Source of the DNA: Histomonas meleagridis
Taxonomy: Eukaryota > Parabasalia > Tritrichomonadida > Dientamoebidae
Direction of reading: 5' to 3'
NCBI GenBank assembly: GCA_020186115.1
Contig: WSYJ01000179.1
Location: 23,454 to 87,453, forward strand
Length of the DNA: 64,000 nucleotides
The translations under genes and the position numbers were made by a program. The notes below the pieces were generated by a model. That model was given only the letters and a program-made list of their open reading frames with translations. It was not told the origin of the DNA and ran no database searches. Positions 7,657 through 63,927 of this stretch are shown in pieces; positions within the stretch are counted from its first letter, which is position 1; the number at the start of each line of letters is the position of its first letter.

Positions 7657-9498
7657 TTAAATCCATTGGTCCTCATCTTCTTTTAATAGATTACTAAATT
7701 CCTTATTGACATCTTCGAAATTTGTTTCTAAACTTGATGACGTATCATTTATATTTGACGTTGATTTTGTTTTTGTTCTCTGTTTCTTATTTCTTTTCAA
7801 CATGAAAATTACGATTCCGACAATTATCAAAACTAAAATAATAGCACTGCATATAATACCAATTAATATTTTATTTGATAACGATTTATCATTTGGAATA
7901 TTATCATAATTTGTTATGACAAATGTATAAAAGCTGTAGTAATAATATGAAGTATACTTATAATATATAACTGTGTAGTCGTAAAAAATGATATTTGTCT
8001 CCATATAACTATAAGTGGATTCAAATGTTAACATTGAAATTGTATTTATATATTTACTATAAAATGTAATCGAATGTGTAATAGATATTGAGTGCGTTAA
8101 AGTGAATGAATGTGTTAAAATTATGTTTGACACTAATGAATCAATAGAAGCATCAGATTCACGAGTTGTATATAATGATGATTTAGAAAATTTTGTATAT
8201 ATAGACAACATAGTAAATGTGTAACTTTGTGTAAATAAATTTGACTTTGTATATGTATTTGAATGGGAAAATGCACTTGTTTTTGAAAATGTGTTTGACT
8301 TTGAATATGTATTTGATTCAGTGAATGAATCTGATTTAGTGAATGAATCTGATTTAGTGAATGAATCTGATTTAGTGAATGAATCTGATTTAGTGAATGA
8401 ATCTGATTTAGTGAATGTATTTGATTTAGTGAATGTATTTGATTTAGTGAATGTATTTGATTTAGTGAATGTATTTGATTTAGTGAATGTATTTGATTTT
8501 GTACACGTGTTTGACTTTGTAAATGCATTTGATTTAGTGAATGTATTACTTTCCGTGAGTTTGCGTGTTTGTAAATGACATTCATCAATTATTGTGCCTT
8601 TAGAAACAATTTTTTCACCGAATGTGTCGTTTAGATATTCCAATGGAGTCACAATTGATGTTGCTGGCACATTGTAAAATACATAATCACCTATAGTTGG
8701 TGAAATTGTTCCTTCAAAATAAATACATTTTAGAGAATCACAGCCACTAAATGCAGATTCACCAATATATGAAACTTTATTTCCAATAACAATTGTTTCT
8801 AAATTAGAACTTTTATAAAATGTGTTAGACCTAATATTTATTACTGAATTTGGAATAATAAATGTTTTACTTTTCCCATTTGGATAACATATAATCTCTG
8901 TTATTTGTGTATCATATAAAACGCCATCATTTTCATTGTTCGAAAAATATGGATTTTCTTCTGATACGTTAATAAATTGAAGACTTGTACATCTTGTAAA
9001 TGGATTTAATGAGAGAGAACGAACAGATTTTGGTATATTAATATACTTAAGGTTGTTACAACTTTGGAATGCATCAGAAGAAATTGCAAGTAGACCTTCT
9101 TTTAATGCAACACTTTCAATTCTAACGCATTGCCCAAATGCATTCTCACCAATTGATTTGCACGAAATTGTAAGTGTTACTAAAGAAATACAATTATAAA
9201 ATGCATATTGGTTTATCACTGCTAAAGAATTCTCTTCAAATTTTATCTTTTCTAATTTTTCACAATAAGAAAAAGCATTTTTATCAATATTAACAACTGA
9301 TTTCCCAATATCTGCAGAAGTTAATTCAGACCAATGATAAAATGCTTTTTCAATAATTTCTTCAACATCTTTGATTATAACGTGCTCAGTGTTGCAAATA
9401 TATTCATATGTAAATTCATTTGATTGAGTTATTGTAAGTGTTTTTGATTGTTCATTAAATACTTGGGCTGTGCTAACAAAAAATATAATAAATAACAT
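7657..9498 (-). CDS. BspA-like leucine-rich-repeat surface protein with Ser/Thr stalk
   Basis: 613 aa if it starts at the ATG at 9496-9498, which opens a clean signal peptide (MLFIIFFVSTAQVFNEQ). The frame continues open upstream to 10080, but that extension lacks family features and runs into a transposon end. LRR_5 (Treponema pallidum-type) repeats cover the first 320 residues, with motifs such as AFSGCDSLKCIYFEG and SVINIRSNTFYKSSNLE. A stalk of about 20 six-residue TFTKSN/SFTKSD repeats follows, then a Tyr-rich juxtamembrane patch, one transmembrane helix (ILIGIICSAIILVLIIVGIV) and an acidic tail ending DEDQWI. BspA-like proteins are a large trichomonad surface family linked to adhesion. 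This copy is intact. Confidence 0.85.
   Translation of the reverse strand: MLFIIFFVSTAQVFNEQSKTLTITQSNEFTYEYICNTEHVIIKDVEEIIEKAFYHWSELTSADIGKSVVNIDKNAFSYCEKLEKIKFEENSLAVINQYAFYNCISLVTLTISCKSIGENAFGQCVRIESVALKEGLLAISSDAFQSCNNLKYINIPKSVRSLSLNPFTRCTSLQFINVSEENPYFSNNENDGVLYDTQITEIICYPNGKSKTFIIPNSVINIRSNTFYKSSNLETIVIGNKVSYIGESAFSGCDSLKCIYFEGTISPTIGDYVFYNVPATSIVTPLEYLNDTFGEKIVSKGTIIDECHLQTRKLTESNTFTKSNAFTKSNTCTKSNTFTKSNTFTKSNTFTKSNTFTKSNTFTKSDSFTKSDSFTKSDSFTKSDSFTKSDSFTESNTYSKSNTFSKTSAFSHSNTYTKSNLFTQSYTFTMLSIYTKFSKSSLYTTRESDASIDSLVSNIILTHSFTLTHSISITHSITFYSKYINTISMLTFESTYSYMETNIIFYDYTVIYYKYTSYYYYSFYTFVITNYDNIPNDKSLSNKILIGIICSAIILVLIIVGIVIFMLKRNKKQRTKTKSTSNINDTSSSLETNFEDVNKEFSNLLKEDEDQWI
8327..8506. 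repeat. 18-bp tandem repeats encoding the stalk of the BspA-like protein
   Basis: About five units of GAATCTGATTTAGTGAAT are followed by about five of GTATTTGATTTAGTGAAT on the plus strand. They encode SFTKSD and TFTKSN hexapeptides on the minus strand. Each block is internally near-identical, which suggests recent expansion of two variants. More diverged units continue on both sides. Confidence 0.9.
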
Positions 9499-10064
9499 TG
9501 GAATTACGCTAATATTTAGTCTATTATATTTATTATTGAAATAACTTTTAGATAATAAAGTAAAAACAAAAAATATATTCATAAGCAAAACTGAATTTCC
9601 GTTTATCATAGTAAACATCAAATTGAGTATTTTTAGCAAATTCATTGGTAAACTATTATGTTTTAATGACGAAATACAATGTAAAAACATATTTGGGTGA
9701 TAACGAAAATGTAACATAGAAATTATTTGAGGAAAAAAAGATAAAAAAGCCTTTTTTGAAAATATGCACTGCATATTTATTAGAGTGCCTTCACTAGAAT
9801 TCGTTGAAAAAAGACAGTACAATAAATGATTTAATTTGCTCATAGTTTGTTTTTTCTGGGAACAATAAAAAAATATTTCGATCCTTTTATTATTTATTCT
9901 ATTACTCATAGAGTTCATATTTACGTTTGATACATATATATTCTGAGTGATATTTCTAATAAAAACGGGTTTGACAAATATTGGAATTAAAGCACTGACA
10001 TGAATCAATTTTAACATTAATTGAAAATATCGAATGTTACACATAAATTTTCGGATATATATCC
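9499..10064. other. Upstream region of the BspA-like gene
   Basis: Open in the BspA frame on the minus strand but without domain features. The predicted peptide is unlike the family, so I read this as 5' non-coding DNA between the signal-peptide ATG and the pogo-type element. Confidence 0.5.
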
Positions 10065-11593
10065 AAAACCTAGACAACAAATAAAAACCCAGACAACTTA
10101 TTATGGCAACCGTTAAGAAAATTTATTTAATGAAATAAAAATATCTCATTACATCCTTGAAATTATTATATAATTAATTATTTTTTATTGATGTATCCAA
10201 ATGTTTTTGCCCTTGGTGATACTGGTGAATCAATCAAGAAATTTTCTTCGATTCTTTGCTTGTGTTTATTTTCATTAATTACCACTGTATGTGGATCATT
10301 TGAGGTATCAATTTCTAAGCCAGCACGATAAAAAGCATTTCGATTGTTCTCTGAAGTCGTTGCACGTTCAATAGCTGAGATAACACGATCAAGTTGAATA
10401 CCATTTTCATATTTTAAAGTTGTAGAACGAATTTCATTTTTAAAAACGCCAAATGTTACTAAATCGAGTGGTTGGAATAAATGTGAGAAATGTGGAGGAA
10501 TAGTAACCAATCGTACGTTGTTTTGAGTTAATCTTTTAATCATTGCATTATCGAAATGCGATGCACAATTGTAACTAATGAGAACAGCTGGTTTGTCGCC
10601 AAATTTTTCATCATTTCTTAAATTTTGAATGTAAACATGAAAAACATCATTAATATATTCTGAAATGATTTCCATCGAGGCATAAGTAGGTTCTTGATAA
10701 CGGATAATAATATCCTTTCCAATGCGGATATCTGATAGCAAAACTTCATGATCAAGAGTCTTTCTTGAGATTATCATTAATGGTGTTAATACATCACCAG
10801 CCACAGAAATGGTAGTAATTGATGAGATTTATCCGCACAATATTCGATTTCGGCATTTTTCAATAATGAAGGGACAACCACCTTTTTTGTTTTTTATTGG
10901 CCCATTCCTGTTGACCAACATCATCGAGATTAAATATCAATTCTGTCGGTAAACCGCTCACATATTTCATTAAATTTGGGATATGTTTTAAACAAGAACT
11001 CTTCGATAAATTAACTCGATTTTTTTCCTGTGGTAAAGCTGTCGTCTTAACAATATTATTTTGATGTCTTATAATAAAATTATGATACCAGGATGGAGAA
11101 ACAGTAATATTAAATTGTTCGAAAATATAATTACGGATATCTTTCTATTTGCATTATTTGTGACATTCAGCTCTTAATTATATATATAATAATAATAATT
11201 CTTCATATTCATTAGGTAAAATGGTTGGTCTTCCATTTGAAGTTTTCACGTTTTTATTAAGAGCATGACTAAATTTATTTTAATCGACTTCATAAATTGA
11301 AGCAATTTTGCTTACAGTTGTTGTAATAACATCAAAATCTATGATCATTTTATAAATTGCGATTGCTTGCTTCATTCTAGATTTCGCATTTATCTGCATT
11401 CGATAATTTCGTAAAATGTATCTGACATCAGAATTAGAAAATTTTGTCGATAAAACATGTTCTAACTGATTTTCAGTGAATGAGGGCTTTTATTTGGGGG
11501 CATTTGGTTAAAAAAAATGAAAAAATTGCTATTTAAACGTATTTTAGTGTAAACAAAAGTGCTGTCTATGTTTTAGTATGATGTCTAGGTTTT
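10065..11593. mobile_element. Pogo/Tigger-type (DDE_1) DNA transposon, inactivated
   Basis: The terminal inverted repeats are recognisable. The left end (10065-10096) begins AAAACCTAGACAAC and the right end (11561-11593), reverse-complemented, begins AAAACCTAGACATC. Both hold a second AGACA about 23 bases in. The interior carries a broken minus-strand transposase. Exact ends and the target duplication are uncertain. It lies next to the Merlin element, making a small transposon cluster. Confidence 0.65.
10178..11513 (-). pseudogene. DDE_1 superfamily transposase, degraded
   Basis: The intact 3' part (10178-10804, 208 codons) has the hallmark IPPHFSHLFQPLDLVTFGVF of pogo/Tigger/CENP-B-type transposases. 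Homology continues upstream to an ATG near 11513 (MPPNKSPHS), but with stops and frameshifts, for example in the KKQK region near 10890 and several stops near 11130-11190. The usual catalytic Asp before the CxSH motif reads Tyr here (LISYNCASH), so even the intact part would be inactive. Confidence 0.75.
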
Positions 11594-11878: not shown

Positions 11879-12772
11879 TTAAGTAATTTCACCAATTATT
11901 GCTTTCCAGCATTTTTCAAATGTATTTCCTATATTTCTTCGAAAGCACCATTCATGGATATATGATTCGTAATAATTTCTATCTCTAAATCCATTTTTTA
12001 TGAGGTATCCTTCTATTAGATTCCATGTACCTTCTATTTTTTGAGTATTTGCCTCAGTAATTGGATCTACAAAATTTTCTGAGTGATTTACTGTTTTGTG
12101 TACATAACCTAAATCACTAAGAGTATTATATGCCTTCCATTCATCAGCCCAAATTTCTGAATTAGGTCTAACTGTCGAACAAATAATTGGAATGAGAACT
12201 TCTTTCGATCTATTTTCGCAAATCTCAGCAACAACTCTCATCGTTTTACTGTCTATTTCGCCAAAAACCCAAATTTCTTCTTTTTCCAATGCACTTCCTT
12301 TGTTGTATTTAGCACCGAAAAATTGACTTTCATCAATTTCGACTATTCCATCACCAAGTAAATTCTGAGCTATATCTTTTCGATATTCTTTTTCTGCAAT
12401 AGATCGAAAAGTTTGAAACCATGTTATTACTGATCGTTCACATACACCTGTAATTTTAGATGTAGTTCTTATATCAAAATTTTCTACCCAACATGCTAAA
12501 ATGTGAACAAATCCCCTTAATGAAAGTTTTGATTGTGATACCCATGAATCTAATCTGATTGATTTTGAATTTCTGCATTTACTTGAGCAGCATCTATATG
12601 CAGCACCATCAGGGTAACTTGGTGAGAAATAAACTTTCATTAACGATTGACATTTCGGACATATTTAAATTTGGTGGATATCAGGAATGATTCCCTGCTC
12701 AGAGGCCCATTTGATGAAGCTTTTGTCATTTAATTTTAACACTTTCTTAATGGTTTCGAATTGCAATTGCAT
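11879..12772 (-). pseudogene. Merlin/ISXO2-like transposase with a single in-frame stop
   Basis: The 253-codon frame from 12640 to 11879 holds the IS1595/ISXO2 core: VEIDES (first catalytic Asp), IWADEWKAY (second Asp) and TQKIEGTWNLIE near the third acidic position. The N-terminal part continues upstream in the same frame to an ATG at 12772 (MQLQFETIKKVLKLND), including the zinc-knuckle ICPKC paired with CCSSKC. It is interrupted only by one TAA at 12665-12667 (codon 36), with no indel. Translation from a downstream Met would lose the zinc-binding half. It may be inactive but trans-mobilisable. Confidence 0.8.
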
Positions 12773-27247: not shown

Positions 27248-28200
27248 TTAATTGAGCTCCCTTTCTAAAAGCAATTTAACAATTTCTGTATGACCTTTTG
27301 AAGATACATACACAAGTGCCATATTAAATATTTAAAATAATTATCAAATATTATTTTGAAATATCAAATTATTAAGAAACATTTTAAATAAATCAAATAA
27401 ATATCTTTTGCATGAATATTAATTCCTTTTTGCTTTAAAATGTATGAAACAAGTTCAATATTCCCTGAAAATGAAGCAAAAACTAAAATATCTTCTGGAA
27501 TTTGATTGTTTTTAAGGAAATATTTTACAAGAAAATGTTTCCAATTTTTGCTGTTTCATTCATGATAATTTCATTAATTTTCATTCCTTCTTTTTCCAAA
27601 TATGTAAAAATTTCATAATTAAAATATGAACCACATTTTTCTCCTAATTCGTCTAATTGATTAATATCTTCAATTTTATTTTCACAAAGATATTTAAAGA
27701 TATCATTTCGATGAAACATAATTGCTGATTTATATGCATCTTCAAATGATGAATGATTTTGTTCACATATATGAATGATTTCTTCATTTCCACCTGCAAT
27801 TGCATATTTACCTGTATCTTCTACATTTGCACCATTCATAAGTAAATATTTAAAACATTTAACTGAAGAAAAAAATACTGCATAATCAATTAATGTAACA
27901 TCCCGATAATTAATAAATGAACATCTTTTATAAAGTGATGGTTTAATTTTCTGATTAAAATCGAATTCATTTTGTGATGATATTTTTTGATGTTTTTCGA
28001 TTTCATCATTTCGAATTCTTTTCGCAATTTCATTCGGATTATTTCCTTCTTTAATTAATTTCTTATGAACTTCAATTTGAACCAAAATCATTCTTTATAG
28101 TTCTTCATAAACGATATTTTCTTGATCATATAAATATTTATATCTATCTAATTTATCTTGATTAATATGAACAAAAACATCAAATAATAAAATCTTTGTG
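27248..28200 (-). pseudogene. DUF3447/ankyrin protein, decayed copy
   Basis: A 188-codon stretch (27525-28091) matches the other DUF3447 ankyrin genes of the window (EIAKRIRNDEIEKHQ, GANVEDTGKYAIAGGNEEII). Its 5' part is scrambled by stops and indels near 28090, and the N-terminal half is missing beyond about 28200. A one-base loss in a T run near 27530 shifts the frame before LVKYFLKN. Downstream repeats remain readable: one ankyrin body, an 80-nt spacer at 27323-27402, then a terminal repeat (MALVYVSSKGHTEIVKLLL) that stops at 27248. Confidence 0.75.
27323..27402 (-). repeat. 80-nt inter-ankyrin spacer
   Basis: Exactly 80 nt between the codons of HAKD and MALV. On the minus strand it starts ATTTATTTGATTTATTTA and contains ATAATTTGATATTTCAAAAT, the same core as the spacers at 62.5 kb. 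Confidence 0.85.
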
Positions 28201-44944: not shown

Positions 44945-46250
44945 GGGGGTTTAAAAAGTCCTGACCCCACCCCCTTTTTTCGACATCTACTTGATCCATA
45001 AAAATGAACTTTATATAAATAAAAACTACAATGAATGAACTCGATGTGTATTTTGTTGTTATTTAAAAATTTTGTACACTTGTTGAATTATAAGTGATTG
45101 AATTTTTTCTCCCGACTCAAAAACGCCACTTTTTCCACCACAAAATTTAATGGAAAAGTCGGAGCTCAAAATTGTTGTTAAATATTATCTTCTACAAGGA
45201 ATGGGATATCGGTCAATTTACAAAGAAATAAATACTGCTCTTCCTGAAACTGATATATCACTTTCAAGCGTTAAACGATGGTGTAAAAAATTTTCTTCAG
45301 GTGACCTAAGTTGCAATAATTTACCAAGGAGCGGAAGGCCTACAATTAATGTAGCGGATCAAATTCGAGAAATGCTTGAAGAACAACCATTCTTATCAGC
45401 AAAATATATTGCATCAGTTCTAGATCATTTTCCTACTGCTATTAAATCAGTTTTAATTAACGACCTTGGTTTAAAAAAGTATCGAAGAAGGTGGATCCCC
45501 CATATGCTATCGGAAGACGATAAGGAAAAAAGGGTTGAGTATCCCAAAGAAATTTTAAAGATATTAATCAAAGCTAGAGAAAACTTTTTTAATACAATTA
45601 TGACTGGTGACGAGTCGTGGTTCTTTTATGAATATGAACATAAAAAAATGTATGCAGAATCACGTGATATGGTGCCACCGATAGTCTCTAAGAAAATTCT
45701 ATCCAAAAAAAAAATGTTCACAATTTTCTTCAATGGGACGAAAATGCTTTGCATTGATGCATTACCATCTAATTACAAATTTAATCAGCAATATTTTATT
45801 AATTATATAATACCACAATTTCACGAAAATGTTGATCATGACAAAAAACAACCACCTTTAAAAAATATAAAGATTCATATGGATAACTCCCCTATACATA
45901 ATGGATCACTTGTTGCTAAAAAATTAAAAGAAGAAAAAATTAATAGAATTCCTCACCCACCTCATTCACCAGATCTAAGTCCATGTGATTTTTGGATTCT
46001 TGGAATGGCAAAGGAAAACCTAAAGGGTGTGGAGATAAATTCAGAAGAAGATTTAGAAAATGAAATTATACGCATATTCGACGGTGTCACTTTTGAAGAG
46101 CTTCAAATGGTGTTTGAAGCATGGATAAAAAGACTTGAATGGGTGATTAAGAATCATGGAGAGTACTACCATAAATAAAAGTTAATTAAAAAAATATATA
46201 TTTTTTATTCATCGAAAAAAGGGGGTGGGGTCAGAACTTTTTGGACCCCC
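44945..46250. mobile_element. Mariner transposon, apparently intact
   Basis: The 1306-bp element has 39-bp terminal inverted repeats (44945-44983 and 46212-46250) that differ at only three bases. Both begin GGGGGT and hold CTGACCCCACCCCC. TA dinucleotides flank both ends, the mariner target duplication. A single complete transposase frame lies inside. Layout and size match the Tvmar-type mariner elements of trichomonads. Confidence 0.93.
45150..46178 (+). CDS. Mariner transposase (D,D34D)
   Basis: 342 aa, full length. The N-terminal paired-type helix-turn-helix (LQGMGYRSIYKEINTALPET, LSSVKRWCKKFSSGD, NLPRSGRP) binds the terminal repeats. The linker carries RWIPHML, corresponding to the mariner WVPHEL motif. 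The catalytic triad is complete: TGDESWFF, then HMDNSPIHNG, then SPDLSPCDFW, with exactly 34 residues between the second and third Asp. No stops or shifts, so the enzyme may be active. The start ATG at 45150 follows CCACAAAATTTA. Confidence 0.93.
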   Translation: MEKSELKIVVKYYLLQGMGYRSIYKEINTALPETDISLSSVKRWCKKFSSGDLSCNNLPRSGRPTINVADQIREMLEEQPFLSAKYIASVLDHFPTAIKSVLINDLGLKKYRRRWIPHMLSEDDKEKRVEYPKEILKILIKARENFFNTIMTGDESWFFYEYEHKKMYAESRDMVPPIVSKKILSKKKMFTIFFNGTKMLCIDALPSNYKFNQQYFINYIIPQFHENVDHDKKQPPLKNIKIHMDNSPIHNGSLVAKKLKEEKINRIPHPPHSPDLSPCDFWILGMAKENLKGVEINSEEDLENEIIRIFDGVTFEELQMVFEAWIKRLEWVIKNHGEYYHK

Positions 46251-46331: not shown

Positions 46332-47743
46332 TTAATTTGACATTATTTTTTTAACTTGATGGGCGTCAAGAAGTAATTTAACTATTTCTGTGTAATCTTC
46401 TTCTGATGCACAAATTAGTGCAGTTTTAAGAAAATAAAATAATTTCCAAATATTAAAATAAAATATCATATAATTAAAATTAATTTTAAATTAGACTAAC
46501 GAATATTTTTGACATTAATATCAATTCTTTTTTGCTCTAGAAGAAGTTTTACTATTGCTGGATAACCATTTGAAGATGCATACATAAGTGCTGTGTTAAG
46601 ATAACATAATGAATTCCAACAATATTTTTGAAACATTAAACTGATGTTAAAAACTTCAAAGCCAATTGAGTTTAAAAATATAAATGTTTTGAAGTTACTA
46701 TGTTTTAGGGAGATAATTCCTAAATCTGATAAATCTTTAATTATGTTGTTTTTGTTTTCATAAAGATATTTAAATATATCATTTTTATGGAAAATAATCG
46801 CAGTTTCACATGAATCATCAAATGTTGAATGATTTTGTTCACATAAATGAATAATTTCTTCATTTCCGCCTGCAATTGCATATTTACCTGCATTTTCTAC
46901 TTTTGCACCATTCATAAGTAAATATTTAAAACATTTAACTGATCCAAAAAATGCTGCATAATCAATTAATGTAACATTTTCTTCATTAATAAAAGAATAT
47001 CTTTCATAAAGTGATGGTTCGATTATTTGATTGTAATCAAAATTTGTTTGTGATGATATTTCTTGAAGTTTTTCGATTTCATCTTTTCGAATTATTTGCG
47101 CTATTTCATTCGGATTATGTCCTTCTTTAACATATTTCTTATGAAGTTCCCAATCATTTTTTGAAAGTTCTTCAAAGATCAGAAAAAATTGTTCATAAAA
47201 TTTATATTTACATTTCTGAATCTCTTCTTTTGTATAATAATTTGCAAAATATAATGATTTCTTTTCTTCAATGAAATCTGGTTGAATGAGTTCATGTTCA
47301 ATCATTTTTGAAAGTAAATAACATGATTCTTGTGATTTTAACTTAACTAAATAGCTCTTAAAAACATAAAATATTGGATAACTATGAATATTTTTTTCTT
47401 TTACTTCAATATGTTTTAAAAAATTTAAGTATATTATTATTTTATATTTTTGTGATATAAATGCACTATAAATTAATATACTAATTAGATAATTAAATGA
47501 ATAAGGAAAATTATTGTCAAAAAATACAAATGCAGATTGAGATGATGATTGAATATTAGCCTCCGTTAATTTAAAAATAATATTTTCAAGTGTTTGTAGT
47601 GGATCTGTGTTCTTTTTTGAATATGATTTTCTTAAGTTAACCATAGGTAATCTTTGGCCCTTGTTTGTTGCTATTTTAGGTTTTAATATGGGTGCTTTTT
47701 GATGAGTATTCGAAGGAAATCTGTTAATTGGAGATTTTTTCAT
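46332..47743 (-). CDS. DUF3447/ankyrin protein with one 80-nt non-coding spacer
   Basis: The long frame 46496-47743 starts MKKSPINRFPSN, then has a helical N-terminal domain (PLQTLENIIFKLTEANIQ) and the DUF3447-type ankyrin block (LIDYAAFFGSVKCFKYLLMN, GKYAIAGGNEEIIHLCEQNH). It ends in an ankyrin body (LLLEQKRIDINVKN) that runs into a stop. After an 80-nt spacer (46425-46504) a terminal ankyrin repeat (TALICASEEDYTEIVKLLLD) continues to a stop at 46332. Removing exactly the spacer joins both parts in frame (about 443 aa). An earlier junction inside the frame (ISLMFQKYCWNSLCYLN) looks like a spacer that stayed readable. The likely role is protein binding; partners unknown. Confidence 0.7.
46425..46504 (-). 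repeat. 80-nt inter-ankyrin spacer
   Basis: Exactly 80 nt between the codons of NVKN and TALI. On the minus strand it begins ATTCGTTAGTCTAATTT and contains AATATTTGGAAATTATTTT. It carries an in-frame TAG at its third codon. Confidence 0.85.
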
Positions 47744-48517: not shown

Positions 48518-50961
48518 ATGAATCATTTGAATCAAAAAAATAATCTTATTTTATTATTAAAAGACATCGAGTCAATTGTCTTTGACTTAAATGAAGATAA
48601 TATTGAGCCAAAAGTTGAAAGTATTATGAATTTATTTGATATTAATTTACCATATTCATATAATTTGATCATTTCACGTTTAATATATAGATCTTTTATA
48701 GTTCAAAAGAAAGATATCAGAATATATTTATTATTCATAAATGCAATCAAGTCAAAAGAAGAATCAATTCAAGAAAATTATGATATAATTGAAGTTTTTA
48801 CACATTTTCTTCTTCAATTAAATTCGCAAGAATCCTTTTATTTTTTAGAAAACATGATTGAAGAAAAATACATTTCTTCTAACGTAATTCAATCAAAAAA
48901 TACATTATATTTTGCCCATTATTTTACTGAATCTAAAATCAATCAATTGAATATTTTTGAAACACCAGTTTTAAATTTCTTTAAAAATATTGAAGATCTT
49001 AAAAAAGACAACTGGAAACTACACAAACAACTTATTAAAGAAGGTATTAATCCTATATCTATCATTAAAGCAATTCGTAACGATGATATTGATAAACTTC
49101 AAGAAATATCATCACAAGATGATTTCGATTATAATCAAATTATTGAACCATCAATTTATGAATCGTTTTCTTTTATTAATGATAGTGATGTTTCATTAAT
49201 TCATTATGCAGCATTTTTCGGATCGATTAAATGTTTTAAATATTTGCTTATGAATGGTTCCAAATTAAATAATGTAAATAAATACGCAGTAGCAGGTGGG
49301 AATATAGAGATAATTCATTTATGTGAACAAAATAATTGTAATTTTAAACAAGTTCATGAAATTGCTTTAGAATTTCATAGGAATAATCTCTTTGATTATT
49401 TTTATAAGAAAAAAGTGATTAAAGCTAAAGAACTTACTCAATTAGAAATTAAATGTATTAAAAATGATAATTATTCTTTGTTTGTTTCATTATTAGAAAA
49501 GAAAAAGTCAAAATTTGATTTAAATATTGTTAATGAAACAGCAACAACAGGTAATATTTTTCTCATGAAATATTTCATGTATGATTATAAACTTCCAAAA
49601 AATATTTTAGCTTGTGCATCAGAATCAGGAAATTTAGAGTTAATGAAATTACTTCTTGAACAAAAAGGAATTGATATTAACTATGGAAGCATTTGATTTA
49701 ATATTTTCGAATTGAAAATTTTTATTTGGAATTTACTTAAATTAATTTATACTCCACTTATAATTGCATCTAAATATGGTCATATTGGATTGGTTAAATT
49801 ACTTCTTGAACAAGAAGGAATTAATGTTAATGCAATGAATATTTTTTTATTTTGTTTAAAGTATTTTAATATTATATGATGTTTTTTTATTTAATTTGGT
49901 GAAACAGCTTTAATTATGGCATCTAAAAATGGTAATATTGAAGTGGAAAAGATACTTTTAGAAAATGATGAGACTGAGATTGATGATAAAGATATTATTT
50001 TGTTTTTTTCAAAGTTTATAAAAATATTATATTATTATTTTATACTTCATGTTTTTTTGATTTGTTTGGTAAAAATGCATTAATGGTTGCTTCTGAACAT
50101 GGGCATATAGAAATAGTTAAATTGCTTCTTGAGCAAAATTTAATTGATATCAATGATCCTGACGTATTTTTTTATTATTTGCTTTCATGATTTCGACTTA
50201 ATATTTGGAAGTTATTTAAAATATTTCAAACAGCTCTTATTATTGCATCAGAAAAAGGTAATTTAGAGATAGTTAAATTACTTCTAGCGCAAAATGGAAT
50301 TGATATCAATAAAAAAGATAATTATTTATTTCATTTAAAACTTATTTAAAAATCTTTGGATTTCAAAATCATTTTTAAGATTTATTGTTATGACCTCGAA
50401 CAGCTCTTATATTAGCATCTTGGTTTGGTTATACAGAAATAGTTAAATTACTTCTTGAACAAGAAGGAATTGATATTAATGCTAAAGATATTTATTTGTT
50501 TTATTTTGGATTTATTTTAATAATTCTGTATTTTTAAATAATATTTGGAAATTATTTAAATTATTTAAAACAGCACTTATGAAAGCATCTGAATATGGTC
50601 ATACAGAAATAGTTAAATTACTTCTTGAACAAGAAGGAATTAATATTAATGCTATAGATATTTATTTGTATTATTTAATATTTATTTTAATAATTTTATA
50701 TTTGTAAATAATATTTAGAAATTGTTTAAATTATTTTATACAGCACTTATGTTAGCATCTCGATATGGTCATACAGAAATAGTTAAATTACTTCTTGAAC
50801 AAGAAGGAATTGATATTAATGCTAAAGATAGTATTTATTCTAATAATTTGATATTCCAAAATAATATTTGGAAATTATTTAAATTATTTGAGACAGCACT
50901 TATGATTGCATCTAGAAATGGTTATACAGAAATAGTCAAATTATTTCATAAGCACGAATGA
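48518..50961 (+). CDS. DUF3447/ankyrin protein with eight spacer-separated repeats
   Basis: The first frame (48518-49696, 392 aa) has a helical N-terminal domain (LLKDIESIVFDLNEDNIEPK), the DUF3447 block (VSLIHYAAFFGSIKCFKYLL, NKYAVAGGNIEIIHLCEQN) and an ankyrin body ending GIDINYGS. Eight further 30-codon bodies follow at 49751, 49904, 50074, 50230, 50400, 50570, 50740 and 50893, for example TALMLASRYGHTEIVKLLL. All are free of stops. The last ends in a shortened cap (KLFHKHE) and TGA. They are separated by spacers of 60, 63, 80, 66, 80, 80, 80 and 63 nt, most with stops. Excising each whole spacer would leave one frame of about 630 codons. The annotated span assumes the repeats are one gene; if not, only the first frame is translated. 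Confidence 0.6.
49691..50892 (+). repeat. Ankyrin unit array: 90-bp bodies alternating with 60-80-nt spacers
   Basis: Spacers: 49691-49750, 49841-49903, 49994-50073, 50164-50229, 50320-50399, 50490-50569, 50660-50739 and 50830-50892. The 80-nt ones share ATTTATTTG at the start and AATATTTGGAAATTATTT plus AAATTATTT near the end. The 170-bp unit recurs. No consistent GT at the left end or AG at the right end. The last spacer (63 nt) reads in frame as SIYSNNLIFQNNIWKLFKLF. Confidence 0.9.
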
Positions 50962-61213: not shown

Positions 61214-63567
61214 ATGATAAAAAGAAATCAAACAATGTGGAAAAATGCATTGGAATCACTCGAAGACGTTATCTTTGATTTAAATGAAGATAATATTGAT
61301 GAAAGTGTTGAAAGTGCTCTAAATTTGTGCAAAACTTTTTCTTCTTACTCAGACCGAATTCTTAGCACAATAATATATTCATCGTTTGTGGCACAAATGA
61401 AAGATTTTAATCTCTATCTTAATTTCATCCTTAAATATGAAGCCAGAAACAATAAATATAATCATAAATTAATTAAAGTTTTTGCTAAATTTCTTCTTCA
61501 GCACCATACCCCAGAATCTTTTTATCTTCTCAACAAATTAATTGAACATAATTTCATATTGCCAAATGTTGTTAAAGTTTTCAGTTCTTTTTATTTTGCG
61601 CATTATTTTAATTATTCGGTAAAAACGACAGATTCTTCATATATAAAAAAAAATTATGTTGAACTTTCAAAGAACGATTGGGAACTTCATAAAAGATATG
61701 TAAATGAAGGATTTAATCCAACAAAAATTGCACAAATTATTCGAAATGATGATTTAGATAAACTTCGAGAACTATATGAAAACAAAAATTTTTATATTGA
61801 TAAAACAATTAAAAAATCAATTTATGAGGTACATGGATGCATTAGCTTTAAAAAACTTTCACTTATTGAATATGCAGCATTTTTTGGTTCTATCAAATGT
61901 TTTATATTTTTACTGGAAAAAGGTGCAAGTTTATGTGAAACAGGTCAATATGCAGTTGCAAATGGGAACCCAACCATTATTCAGTTGTGTAAACAATTTG
62001 GTGCAGGTTTTAATGGATCTTATGAAAATGCAATAAGATTTCATAGAAATGATATTTTTAAAGTATTATATAAATCTAATCTTGATGATTGTGATATTGA
62101 TGAGATCCTAAATTATTTTACTGGATTTCCTCATAAATGCTATAATATTAAGATTTTTAACTTTTTACTTGAACAAGAAGGATTTGATATTAACGCATTT
62201 TTTTCGATTAATTTGAGTTTTTTTAATTTTTTTTTGAGATATTAAAATATTTGGATTTTATTTATTTTATTTGATACATTACTTATGGAGCTTGTCGATG
62301 ATGATGACGACGACTTTGTACTAATTAAGTTACTTCTTGAACAAAAAGAAATTGATATTAATGCTAAAAATATTTAATATTTTTTTGTGAAATTTATTTT
62401 AATAATTTCATATTTCAAAATAATATTTGGAAATCATTTAAATTATTTTATACAGCACTTATGTATGCATCTTTATGTGGTCATACAGAAATAGTTAAAT
62501 TACTTCTTGAACAAGAAGGAATTGATATTAATGCTAAAGATATTTATTTGTTTTATTTGATATTTATTTTAATAATTTGATATTTCAAAATAATATTTGG
62601 AAATCATTTAAATTATTTTGGACAGCACTTATGAAAGCATCTGAAAAAGGTCATACAAAAATAGTTAAATTACTTCTTGAACAAGAAGGAATTGATATTA
62701 ATGCAAAAAATATATATTTGTTTTGTTTGAAATTTATTTTAATAATTTGATATTTCAAAATAATATTTGGAAATTATTTAAATTATTCGAAACAGCACTA
62801 ATGGAAGCAACTAAACAAGGTCACATAGAAATAGTTAAATTACTTCTTGAACAAAAAGGAATCAATGTTAATATTAAACCACATATTTGTTTAATCTGCT
62901 TGAAGATTACTTCTCTCAATTGGTGTTTTAATAAAATATCTAGAAATTATTTAAATTGTTTAAAACACCTCTAATGATAGCATCTATAAATGGTCAAATA
63001 GAAATCGTTCAATTACTTCTTAAACATAAAGAAATTGATGTAAATGCTAAGGATAATTAATTGCTTTATATAATATTTATTATAATATTTTAGTTTTCTA
63101 AAATAATATTTGGAAATTCTTCAATTTATTTAATACACCACTGATTTTGGCATCTAAAAAAGGAAACAAAGAGATAGCTCAATTACTTCTAGAGCATGAA
63201 ACAATTAAAGTTAACATTAAAAATATTCACTTTTTTTGTTTTATATTTCTTTTAGTGATTTTCTATTCCATGTTTATATTTGGTATTATATTAAATTATT
63301 TATGACTGCACTTATGTGTGCAGCAAAAAATAATCAAAAAAAAATAGTTGAATTGCTTCTCGGACAAGAAGGTATTGATATCAATGCAACGAATATTTAA
63401 TTGCTTTGTTTTATATTGATTTTAATGATTTCATATTTCAAAATGATGTTTGGGTTTTGTTTGGGTTGTTTTATACAGCTGTTCACATTGCACTCTTACA
63501 TAATAACGACCAGGTATCTCGTCTACTTAAGATTAATGGTGCAATAGAGACTCGTTTTTATCTGTAA
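61214..63567 (+). CDS. DUF3447/ankyrin protein with spacer-separated repeats and terminal cap
   Basis: The first frame (61214-62245, 343 aa) has the same N-terminal helical domain as the 48.5 kb gene (LESLEDVIFDLNEDNIDESV), the DUF3447 block (LIEYAAFFGSIKCFIFLLEK, GQYAVANGNPTIIQLCKQF) and an ankyrin body ending GFDINA. Repeats follow at 62276, 62452, 62622, 62792, 62965, 63135, 63305 and 63475. All are open; the first has an acidic insert (VDDDDDDFVL). The last (TAVHIALLHNNDQVSRLLKI, NGAIETRFYL) is a diverged cap with a stop at 63565. Spacers between repeats 1 and 8 are 80, 80, 80, 83, 80, 80 and 80 nt. Removing each whole spacer would give one protein of about 580 residues. Expression and the true mature reading frame are unknown. 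Confidence 0.6.
62198..63474 (+). repeat. Ankyrin unit array with length-locked 80-nt spacers
   Basis: Spacers: 62372-62451, 62542-62621, 62712-62791, 62882-62964 (83 nt), 63055-63134, 63225-63304 and 63395-63474, plus a first irregular one near 62204-62275. The sequence diverges clearly among the last three, yet the length stays at 80. Several carry a stop within the first three codons (TAA at 62375, 63058 and 63398). Confidence 0.9.
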
Positions 63568-63850: not shown

Positions 63851-63927
63851 GGTCGGGAATGATCACGAGGTCCCTAGGGGCCCCGCCCCCGGCGGGGCCC
63901 CTAGGGACCTCGTGATCATTCCCGACC
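63851..63927. repeat. Perfect GC-rich inverted repeat, 37-bp arms, 3-nt loop
   Basis: 63851-63887 is the exact reverse complement of 63891-63927, with CCC between. The arms include GTCGGGAATGATCACGAGG and GGGGCCCCGCC. The stem is the strongest secondary structure in the window and sits in DNA of sharply different base composition. Confidence 0.95.

Follow-up and report, generated by a model that had tools for sequence, protein, structure and literature searches.

The question raised by this locus is how an ankyrin protein could be read from a gene whose repeats are separated by spacers that break its frame. In the window, the 64,000-nt stretch of Histomonas meleagridis contig WSYJ01000179.1 analyzed here, a plus-strand N-terminal open frame (48518..49690) without inserts has the first ankyrin body as its last 30 codons. 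A profile search found Pfam Ank and Ank_2 above cut-off on this frame, which makes it an ankyrin protein, and DUF3447 below cut-off. Ankyrin bodies 2-9 follow at 49751..50961 (+), each of 30 codons and alternating with spacers, until the last stops in-frame after 22. The initial annotation gave the spacers at 49691-50892 as 60, 63, 80, 66, 80, 80, 80 and 63 nt, and a body profile with its gap lengths returned exactly these values. The bodies had also been described as free of stops and indels, with frame-breaking spacers that could be skipped in phase, and this is seen both in the first array and in a second one (62114-63567) that has the same architecture as a whole.

Modules within the spacers

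The spacers are built of successive modules, a module being a 17-nt AT-rich insert followed by one codon. The unit was thus misread in the initial annotation: it is the 17-nt insert alternating with single linker codons. In the 80-nt class, four inserts carry four codons reading x-x-Gly-x, and these are the ankyrin loop that the 30-codon bodies lack. T-A-L opens the bodies and N-A-K-D closes most of them; set against the ankyrin loop motif D-x-x-G-x-T, the four codons supply what the loop is missing. When the 80-nt spacers are aligned, variable triplets stand at offsets 17, 37 and 77 (triplet entropy 2.86, 3.04 and 3.28 bits) and a near-fixed GGA at 57 (1.03 bits), and the rest is conserved. 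The residues at the four linker places, K, N, E, D at the first, Y, D, N, K at the second, G at the third and N, E, K, R, W, Y at the fourth, are polar or aromatic, as in ankyrin loops. Of the 155 unique 80-nt spacers, 138 have glycine as the third linker residue and 17 have another residue there.

All eight spacers of the first array (plus strand) can be laid out in this way. Spacer 1 (49691..49750, 60 nt) has three inserts of 17 nt and three linker codons, the middle one Gly. Spacer 2 (49841..49903, 63 nt) has three inserts and four codons, being without the fourth insert, and spacer 8 (50830..50892, 63 nt) has the same numbers without the first. Spacer 4 (50164..50229, 66 nt) has five codons and three inserts. 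The remaining four are 80 nt long with four codons and four inserts: spacer 3 (49994..50073), with two of its inserts adjacent; spacer 5 (50320..50399), where Gly is replaced by Lys; spacer 6 (50490..50569); and spacer 7 (50660..50739), where Gly is replaced by Arg. In the second gene, the N-terminal open frame through the first body lies at 61214..62203 (+), the frame itself extending to 62245. Eight spacers of 78, 80, 80, 80, 83, 80, 80 and 80 nt at 62204..63474 (+) carry the same modules between ankyrin bodies, although the first fits poorly. The last repeat (63475..63567, +) was read straight from the sequence, with no profile match, and has an in-frame stop at its end. On the minus strand, 80-nt spacers at 46425..46504 and 27323..27402, each with four codons and four inserts, belong to a third and a fourth family member; the N-terminal frame of the fourth has a stop.

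The module segmentation was tested on the 16 plus-strand spacers of the window with 300 shuffles each. For 14 of the 16 the score was matched by none of the 300 shuffles; that of spacer 2 was reached by 2/300, and that of the poorly fitting 78-nt spacer at 62204, the first of the second array, by 7/300. The scoring matrices were derived from 80-nt spacers including nine of the sixteen tested, which makes this test partly circular; the stop-codon tests below are not.

For a wider sample, 20 stretches from 13 contigs were fetched around the best genome matches, and bodies were located with a nucleotide profile. Only body hits scoring at least 14 bits were used, minus short ones within body columns 40-75, most of which lie opposite arrays; where a complete 90-base body was followed by a gap of 30-130 bases, that gap was counted as a spacer, giving 238. 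Their lengths were 80 nt (189 spacers), 63 nt (23), 60 nt (6), 81 nt (5), 83 nt (5) and 82 nt (2), with 43, 66, 71, 77, 78, 79, 84 and 100 nt occurring once each. Relative to 80 nt, 63 is one insert less, 60 one module less, 100 one module more, 83 one codon more and 77 one codon fewer, and 43 is two inserts plus three codons. Of the 238 lengths, 11 do not fit this scheme; the other 227 amount to a few whole inserts plus a few whole codons and together contain 877 inserts of 17 nt. Viewed from the 49 spacers that are not 80 nt long, the departure from 80 is a combination of 3, 17 and 20 nt in 38 cases and something else in 11. Since 17 mod 3 is 2, many lengths can be expressed with some number of inserts, and the argument rests on the sequence match and not on the arithmetic; some spacers of fitting length, for example the 77-nt one, segment poorly. 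The length of the inserts is mostly, not strictly, kept, near-fixed as in an ultrashort intron of the heterotrich type, and single inserts are missing at place 1, 2 or 4 while the codons stay.

In the 170-bp family the majority inserts are, in order, ATTTATTTGTTTTATTT, ATTTATTTTAATAATTT, ATTTCAAAATAATATTT and AATTATTTAAATTATTT, four derived forms of the consensus RTWYRTTTTAATAATTT found in the most diverged loci. By position that consensus is A/G, T, T/A, T/C, A/G, then T-rich, AAT, AA and TTT. The first insert base is A in 83-95% and each of the last three is T in 85-95%. Diverged loci carry from 1 to 23 modules. For example, L044 has seven runs of 4 to 23 modules, with every spacing 20 nt and no stop among the codons. 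At L044 1065-1424 and 1512-1971, 18 and 23 consecutive 20-nt modules stand between two ankyrin bodies, the loop codons being mostly E, Y, G, R and V.

This anatomy is spread through the whole genome (43,276,120 bases in 121 contigs were searched). A 271-base piece of the second array gave at least 214 matches. A strict pattern for the body-spacer junctions with inserts was found 1,398 times at gaps of 80-110 and 201 times at 45-75, 1,599 in total, with none in reversed controls; the gap ranges searched were 9-39, 45-75 and 80-110. A two-module pattern of the ATATGT type was found at 1,364 places (reversed control 0). With the same strict pattern at gaps of 9-39, insert-free linkers numbered 0 in the whole genome, as in the reversed control. 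Ankyrin matches elsewhere in the genome fall within long stop-free frames of up to 1,578 residues, so that inserts are not general to ankyrin genes. Across the window and the 20 loci fetched, runs of three modules were confined to ankyrin arrays (control 0), and viral contigs gave 0 matches. Single insert-like 17-mers outside arrays, counted in the window and in L009-L028, numbered 363, 44 and 25 at three thresholds, against 49, 15 and 7 in the reversed control; at the middle threshold, 14 of the 44 lie opposite an array.

Missing stops and selection on bodies

If the arrays were decayed pseudogenes, stops should be as frequent at the codon place as elsewhere. With a null in which each alignment column was shuffled among spacers, the linker places of the 155 unique 80-nt spacers had 0 stops against 27.5 expected (4.0, 7.1, 0.0 and 16.4 by place), and the 74 other offsets had 968 against 976.5. 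When one random unit was drawn per locus (21 loci, 20 draws), linker stops were 0 against 4.2 expected.

A second sample, independent of the origin of the idea, comprised L029-L032, reached via a homologous protein, and L033-L043, reached via the two-module pattern; in this set L036 overlaps L037, L038 overlaps L039, and L034 is nearly a copy of L035. Its 72 gaps include lengths of 20, 40, 60, 80, 100, 120, 140, 160 and 180 nt. Misfitting gaps of 36, 73 and 79 nt also occur, and three 72-nt gaps fall in the N-terminal domain. Only gaps that are multiples of 20 were kept, which dropped 20 of the 72, and identical spacers were counted once. The resulting 50 unique spacers, with 220 modules, have no stop at the codon. 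In the six most diverged loci (L029-L032, L042 and L043; 110 modules) there are 0 codon-place stops against 16.0 expected, and the closest to a deficit among the 17 other offsets is 5 against 8.1. In a third sample, the first 100 listed matches with two ATATGT-type modules, there was 1 linker stop against 18.2 expected. Within the inserts of the diverged loci, tandem stops (TAA TAA by consensus) stand in one frame at offsets 9-14, with 75 of the 110 modules having a stop at each of offsets 9 and 12. Messages left unprocessed would probably be terminated within a few modules by such insert stops.

The bodies tell a related story. Among 152 unique 30-codon bodies there is one stop. Between loci, body dN/dS is about 1 for close pairs and falls to 0.54-0.59 where the inserts differ by more than 30%; the bodies between diverged units are thus under purifying selection, with dN/dS about 0.55. 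The initial annotation had argued against plain decay, and the stops missing at the codon place alone, together with the diverged bodies, uphold that view. Linker codons and bodies thus show signs of selection, whatever frame runs through the inserts. The repeats are otherwise alike, with hypervariable codons at 4, 7, 8 and 10 of the body (counted from 0), and the high dN/dS of close pairs accompanies these codons. Diversifying selection or shuffling may account for the high value, diversifying selection possibly also for the variable codons, and the placement may be that of a binding face.

Body dN/dS, whose comparison with the spacer rate had been proposed, shows constraint between diverged units and is about 1 between close ones. 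The bins for body dN/dS were chosen on insert divergence itself, so the comparison of rates rests on the ratio of inserts to four-fold degenerate sites. These differ at 0.125 and 0.119 per site, a distance ratio of 1.06 over all pairs (1.21 for the closest pairs and about 0.5 to 0.65 for distant ones). With inserts changing at about the four-fold rate, their letters can be only loosely kept.

These rates bear on the possibility that the arrays are not decoded at all, being minisatellite-like sequence that tandem duplication and gene conversion keep tidy in the dead tails of genes. The 20-nt modules do multiply in minisatellite fashion, some N-terminal frames are broken, the array ends are ragged, the insert letters change near the four-fold rate and close units have dN/dS of about 1. 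We nevertheless consider it rather doubtful, because the stop deficit is confined to the codon place in three samples, the bodies of old units are constrained, 38 of the 49 non-80-nt spacers keep to the module arithmetic (11 do not) and the strict pattern finds no insert-free copy that could donate selected sequence. With no insert-free relative seen by that pattern, no clean site is apparent either into which the arrays, as a silent store, could be copied. The related earlier proposal, that a 170-bp unit had spread in a gene of which just the 5' part is translated, leaves both the missing stops and the dN/dS of old units unexplained.

Possible routes past the inserts

We think it probable from the DNA that the inserts are skipped, such that expression sees through them. 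The arrays would then encode ankyrin repeats of about 34 residues, with each loop codon preceded by a 17-nt AT-rich intervening sequence. The likeliest way of skipping would be removal from RNA, the inserts being cut out like ultrashort introns, which we infer less firmly than the skipping itself. The cutting machinery would recognize the 17-mer and would not be a GT-AG spliceosome in its usual form. The best explanation we can offer, put forward tentatively, is therefore one of skipped 17-nt inserts before loop codons with intron-like removal from RNA. Each module is 20 nt in DNA and would be only one codon in protein, so modules may multiply or vanish harmlessly. Stated more broadly, it is reasonably likely that a single expanded nuclear ankyrin family contains, by the thousand, 17-nt introns without GT-AG or else bypass elements, as many as 23 following one another with one-codon exons between them, the inserts perhaps acting also as crossover sites that shuffle the variable loop codons.

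The usual splice signals had been reported missing, and we agree. The inserts lack the terminal GT and AG of spliceosomal introns. The trichomonad branch/3' motif ACTAACACACAG, allowing up to 2 mismatches, occurs 3 times in the window against 3.02 expected and never in the ankyrin arrays, and its exact form occurs 3 times in the whole genome against 2 in the reversed control. The trichomonad intron pattern of GTATGT with TAACACACAG at 10-40 nt occurs 0 times in the genome, in a search that was not exhaustive for introns. Four predicted RNA folds were no better than shuffles (z -0.17 to 0.55).

Several observations weigh against RNA removal. Foremost is the 33-body array of L022, which would need over 100 correct excisions; together with the broken N-terminal frames, this is the strongest argument against it. 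Of 25 arrays, no more than 10 have an in-frame open stretch of at least 200 residues upstream, and in several copies the N-terminal frame is broken. Spliceosome-type exons of one codon in runs of 23, without a splice consensus, also count against it, and to our knowledge such runs have no spliceosome precedent. To the same side belong the 11 misfit spacers among the 238, the insert rate close to four-fold, the close-pair dN/dS near 1, the single stop among the 100 linker codons of the third sample, the 17 replaced glycines among 155 and the folds no better than shuffles. The ragged array ends were dropped as evidence of translation, being too varied.

The unknown splice code and the bypassing suggested in the initial annotation are not supported for whole spacers and survive as candidates for the 17-nt elements, several to a spacer. 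A single intron spanning each spacer would join the bodies in phase, and yet its excision would delete stop-free, hypervariable linker codons that show coding constraint and include the ankyrin Gly; moreover, the inserts go missing singly. On these grounds a whole-spacer intron with shared ends was rejected, and with any splice code we regard it as very unlikely.

Translation through the inserts by programmed frameshifts appears more improbable still. In 117 of the 155 unique 80-nt spacers no stop interrupts the frame into the next body, and new stops in this frame are fewer than in the null (0.053 against 0.098); however, it has no synonymous excess (0.083 against 0.115), and translation of the spacer in this frame was rejected after that synonymy test. 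The two other frames have a small synonymous excess (0.176 against 0.155 and 0.222 against 0.177) but more stops than the null. A length of 17 nt breaks the frame where 15 or 18 would be harmless, the frame shifts at every module, and the stops at offsets 9 and 12 would interrupt 75 of the 110 diverged-loci modules.

Translational bypassing, in which the inserts stay in the mRNA and the ribosome hops each 17-nt gap, would suit the near-constant insert length, and a spacing of one codon is more readily pictured with a ribosome at work than with a spliceosome. Classical bypassing needs matching codons, but here the codon before the insert varies (K, N, E, D, Y, G and others) and the inserts end mostly in TTT, which leaves take-off and landing codons unmatched. 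Up to 23 hops would follow one another, and we know of no precedent in nuclear genes. A precedent does exist in the 81 insert positions of Magnusiomyces mitochondrial genes, where the matching of hop codons is itself imperfect in several of the cases described (PMC5009743). On balance we judge bypassing unlikely. Like the byp elements of Magnusiomyces capitatus mitochondria and the T4 gene 60 bypass, the inserts would be short frame-breaking sequences ignored in the protein (PMC5009743). They differ in being nuclear, shorter and in the thousands, with no matched codons and no stem-loop in the four folds.

We know of no programmed DNA elimination in parabasalids. An assembly representing the unprocessed version of such a genome would nonetheless bring to mind ciliate IESs, which are likewise very short, AT-rich and intragenic (PMC9942806). 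Those of Paramecium also need exact removal and have a length peak of 26-28 bp (PMC9942806), in contrast to 17 nt in a lineage with no known DNA elimination. All 1,599 strict junctions carry inserts and none was found without, which makes this route extremely unlikely.

Known systems, homologues and neighborhood

The preferred reading, removal from RNA, invites comparison with other short introns. The 15-16-nt introns of Stentor and Blepharisma are GT-AG introns; their near-fixed ultrashort length is shared by the inserts, which differ in having no GT-AG and in their one-codon spacing. These introns are spliceosomal (PMC12316389, PMC9942806). Type B introns of Trichomonas vaginalis are about 25 nt long, with a minimum of 23 (PMC12316389). 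The likeness is that both are parabasalid, very short and T-rich, and the degenerate 5' end of short T. vaginalis introns has A/T and C/T at positions 3 and 4 (PMC12316389), as most inserts do. Unlike those introns, the inserts are 17 nt, begin mostly with A, end in TTT and not AG, lack the ACTAA branch site with its fused 12-nt 3' motif, form series of up to 23 separated by one-codon exons and are seen only in one gene family. We regard the resemblance at the 5' end as a possible lead and not as membership. Coding minisatellites also have tandem units that expand and shrink, as the 20-nt modules do, but the unit here is not a multiple of three and the downstream frame is yet under selection.

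We know of no nuclear intron, bypass element or eliminated sequence that precedes every single loop codon, and of no element that combines 17 nt, the lack of GT-AG and one-codon exons. Single-codon exons between near-constant 17-nt inserts match no described system known to us. No report of 17-nt inserts or of Histomonas ankyrin arrays was found in searches of open-licence PubMed Central papers; there may be one elsewhere. Skipping at the level of RNA would call for a novel splicing or RNA-cutting machinery, or for a spliceosome far beyond known limits; skipping by ribosomes would be mass bypassing in a nuclear genome. Either would be a new mode of gene splitting at single-codon resolution, and most of a large family would be absent from the gene models inspected, which end near the first linker. 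Since a 17-nt gap usually comes out of a read aligner as a deletion, the answer may already lie in available RNA data. For H. meleagridis there are RNA reads under PRJNA935845 and a transcriptome by Mazumdar et al. (both named in PMC10063853).

Published work on H. meleagridis gives some context. In the virulent strain, introns are scarce (573 among 11,119 genes), and gene models came from AUGUSTUS trained on a transcriptome (PMC8529796); the word ankyrin is absent from the accessible part of that paper's text. An ankyrin protein called KANK1 was measured in a proteome study (PMC10063853).

The N-terminal domain gave 118 matches in the genome from 107 scored candidates; 107 of the 118 had no stops, with open frames of 308-584 residues. 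In one N-terminal subgroup (C48, C55, C63 and others), two matches within one open frame point to an apparent in-frame insertion, about 63-81 nt long, close to residue 297 of the homologue P0003. Among the 14 closest database proteins (ENA entries), 13 end 1-30 residues beyond the place of the break and one before it; some of these may be contig-end cuts. The best identity of P0003, the one homologue tested, to anything in this genome is 64-71%, which suggests that another lineage has the same break.

Other features of the window can be noted. Transposase-like frames lie at 45150-46178 (weak DDE_3, below cut-off), which adjoins the minus-strand ankyrin array, at 11879-12640 (IS1595/ISXO2-like) and at 10178-10804 (DDE_1). 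A perfect GC-rich inverted repeat with 37-nt arms and 3 nt between them, at 63851-63927 close to the end of the contig, where the window also ends, is perhaps a contig-end artefact. A BspA-type leucine-rich repeat protein (LRR_5) with a serine/threonine-rich tandem repeat is encoded at 7657-10080.
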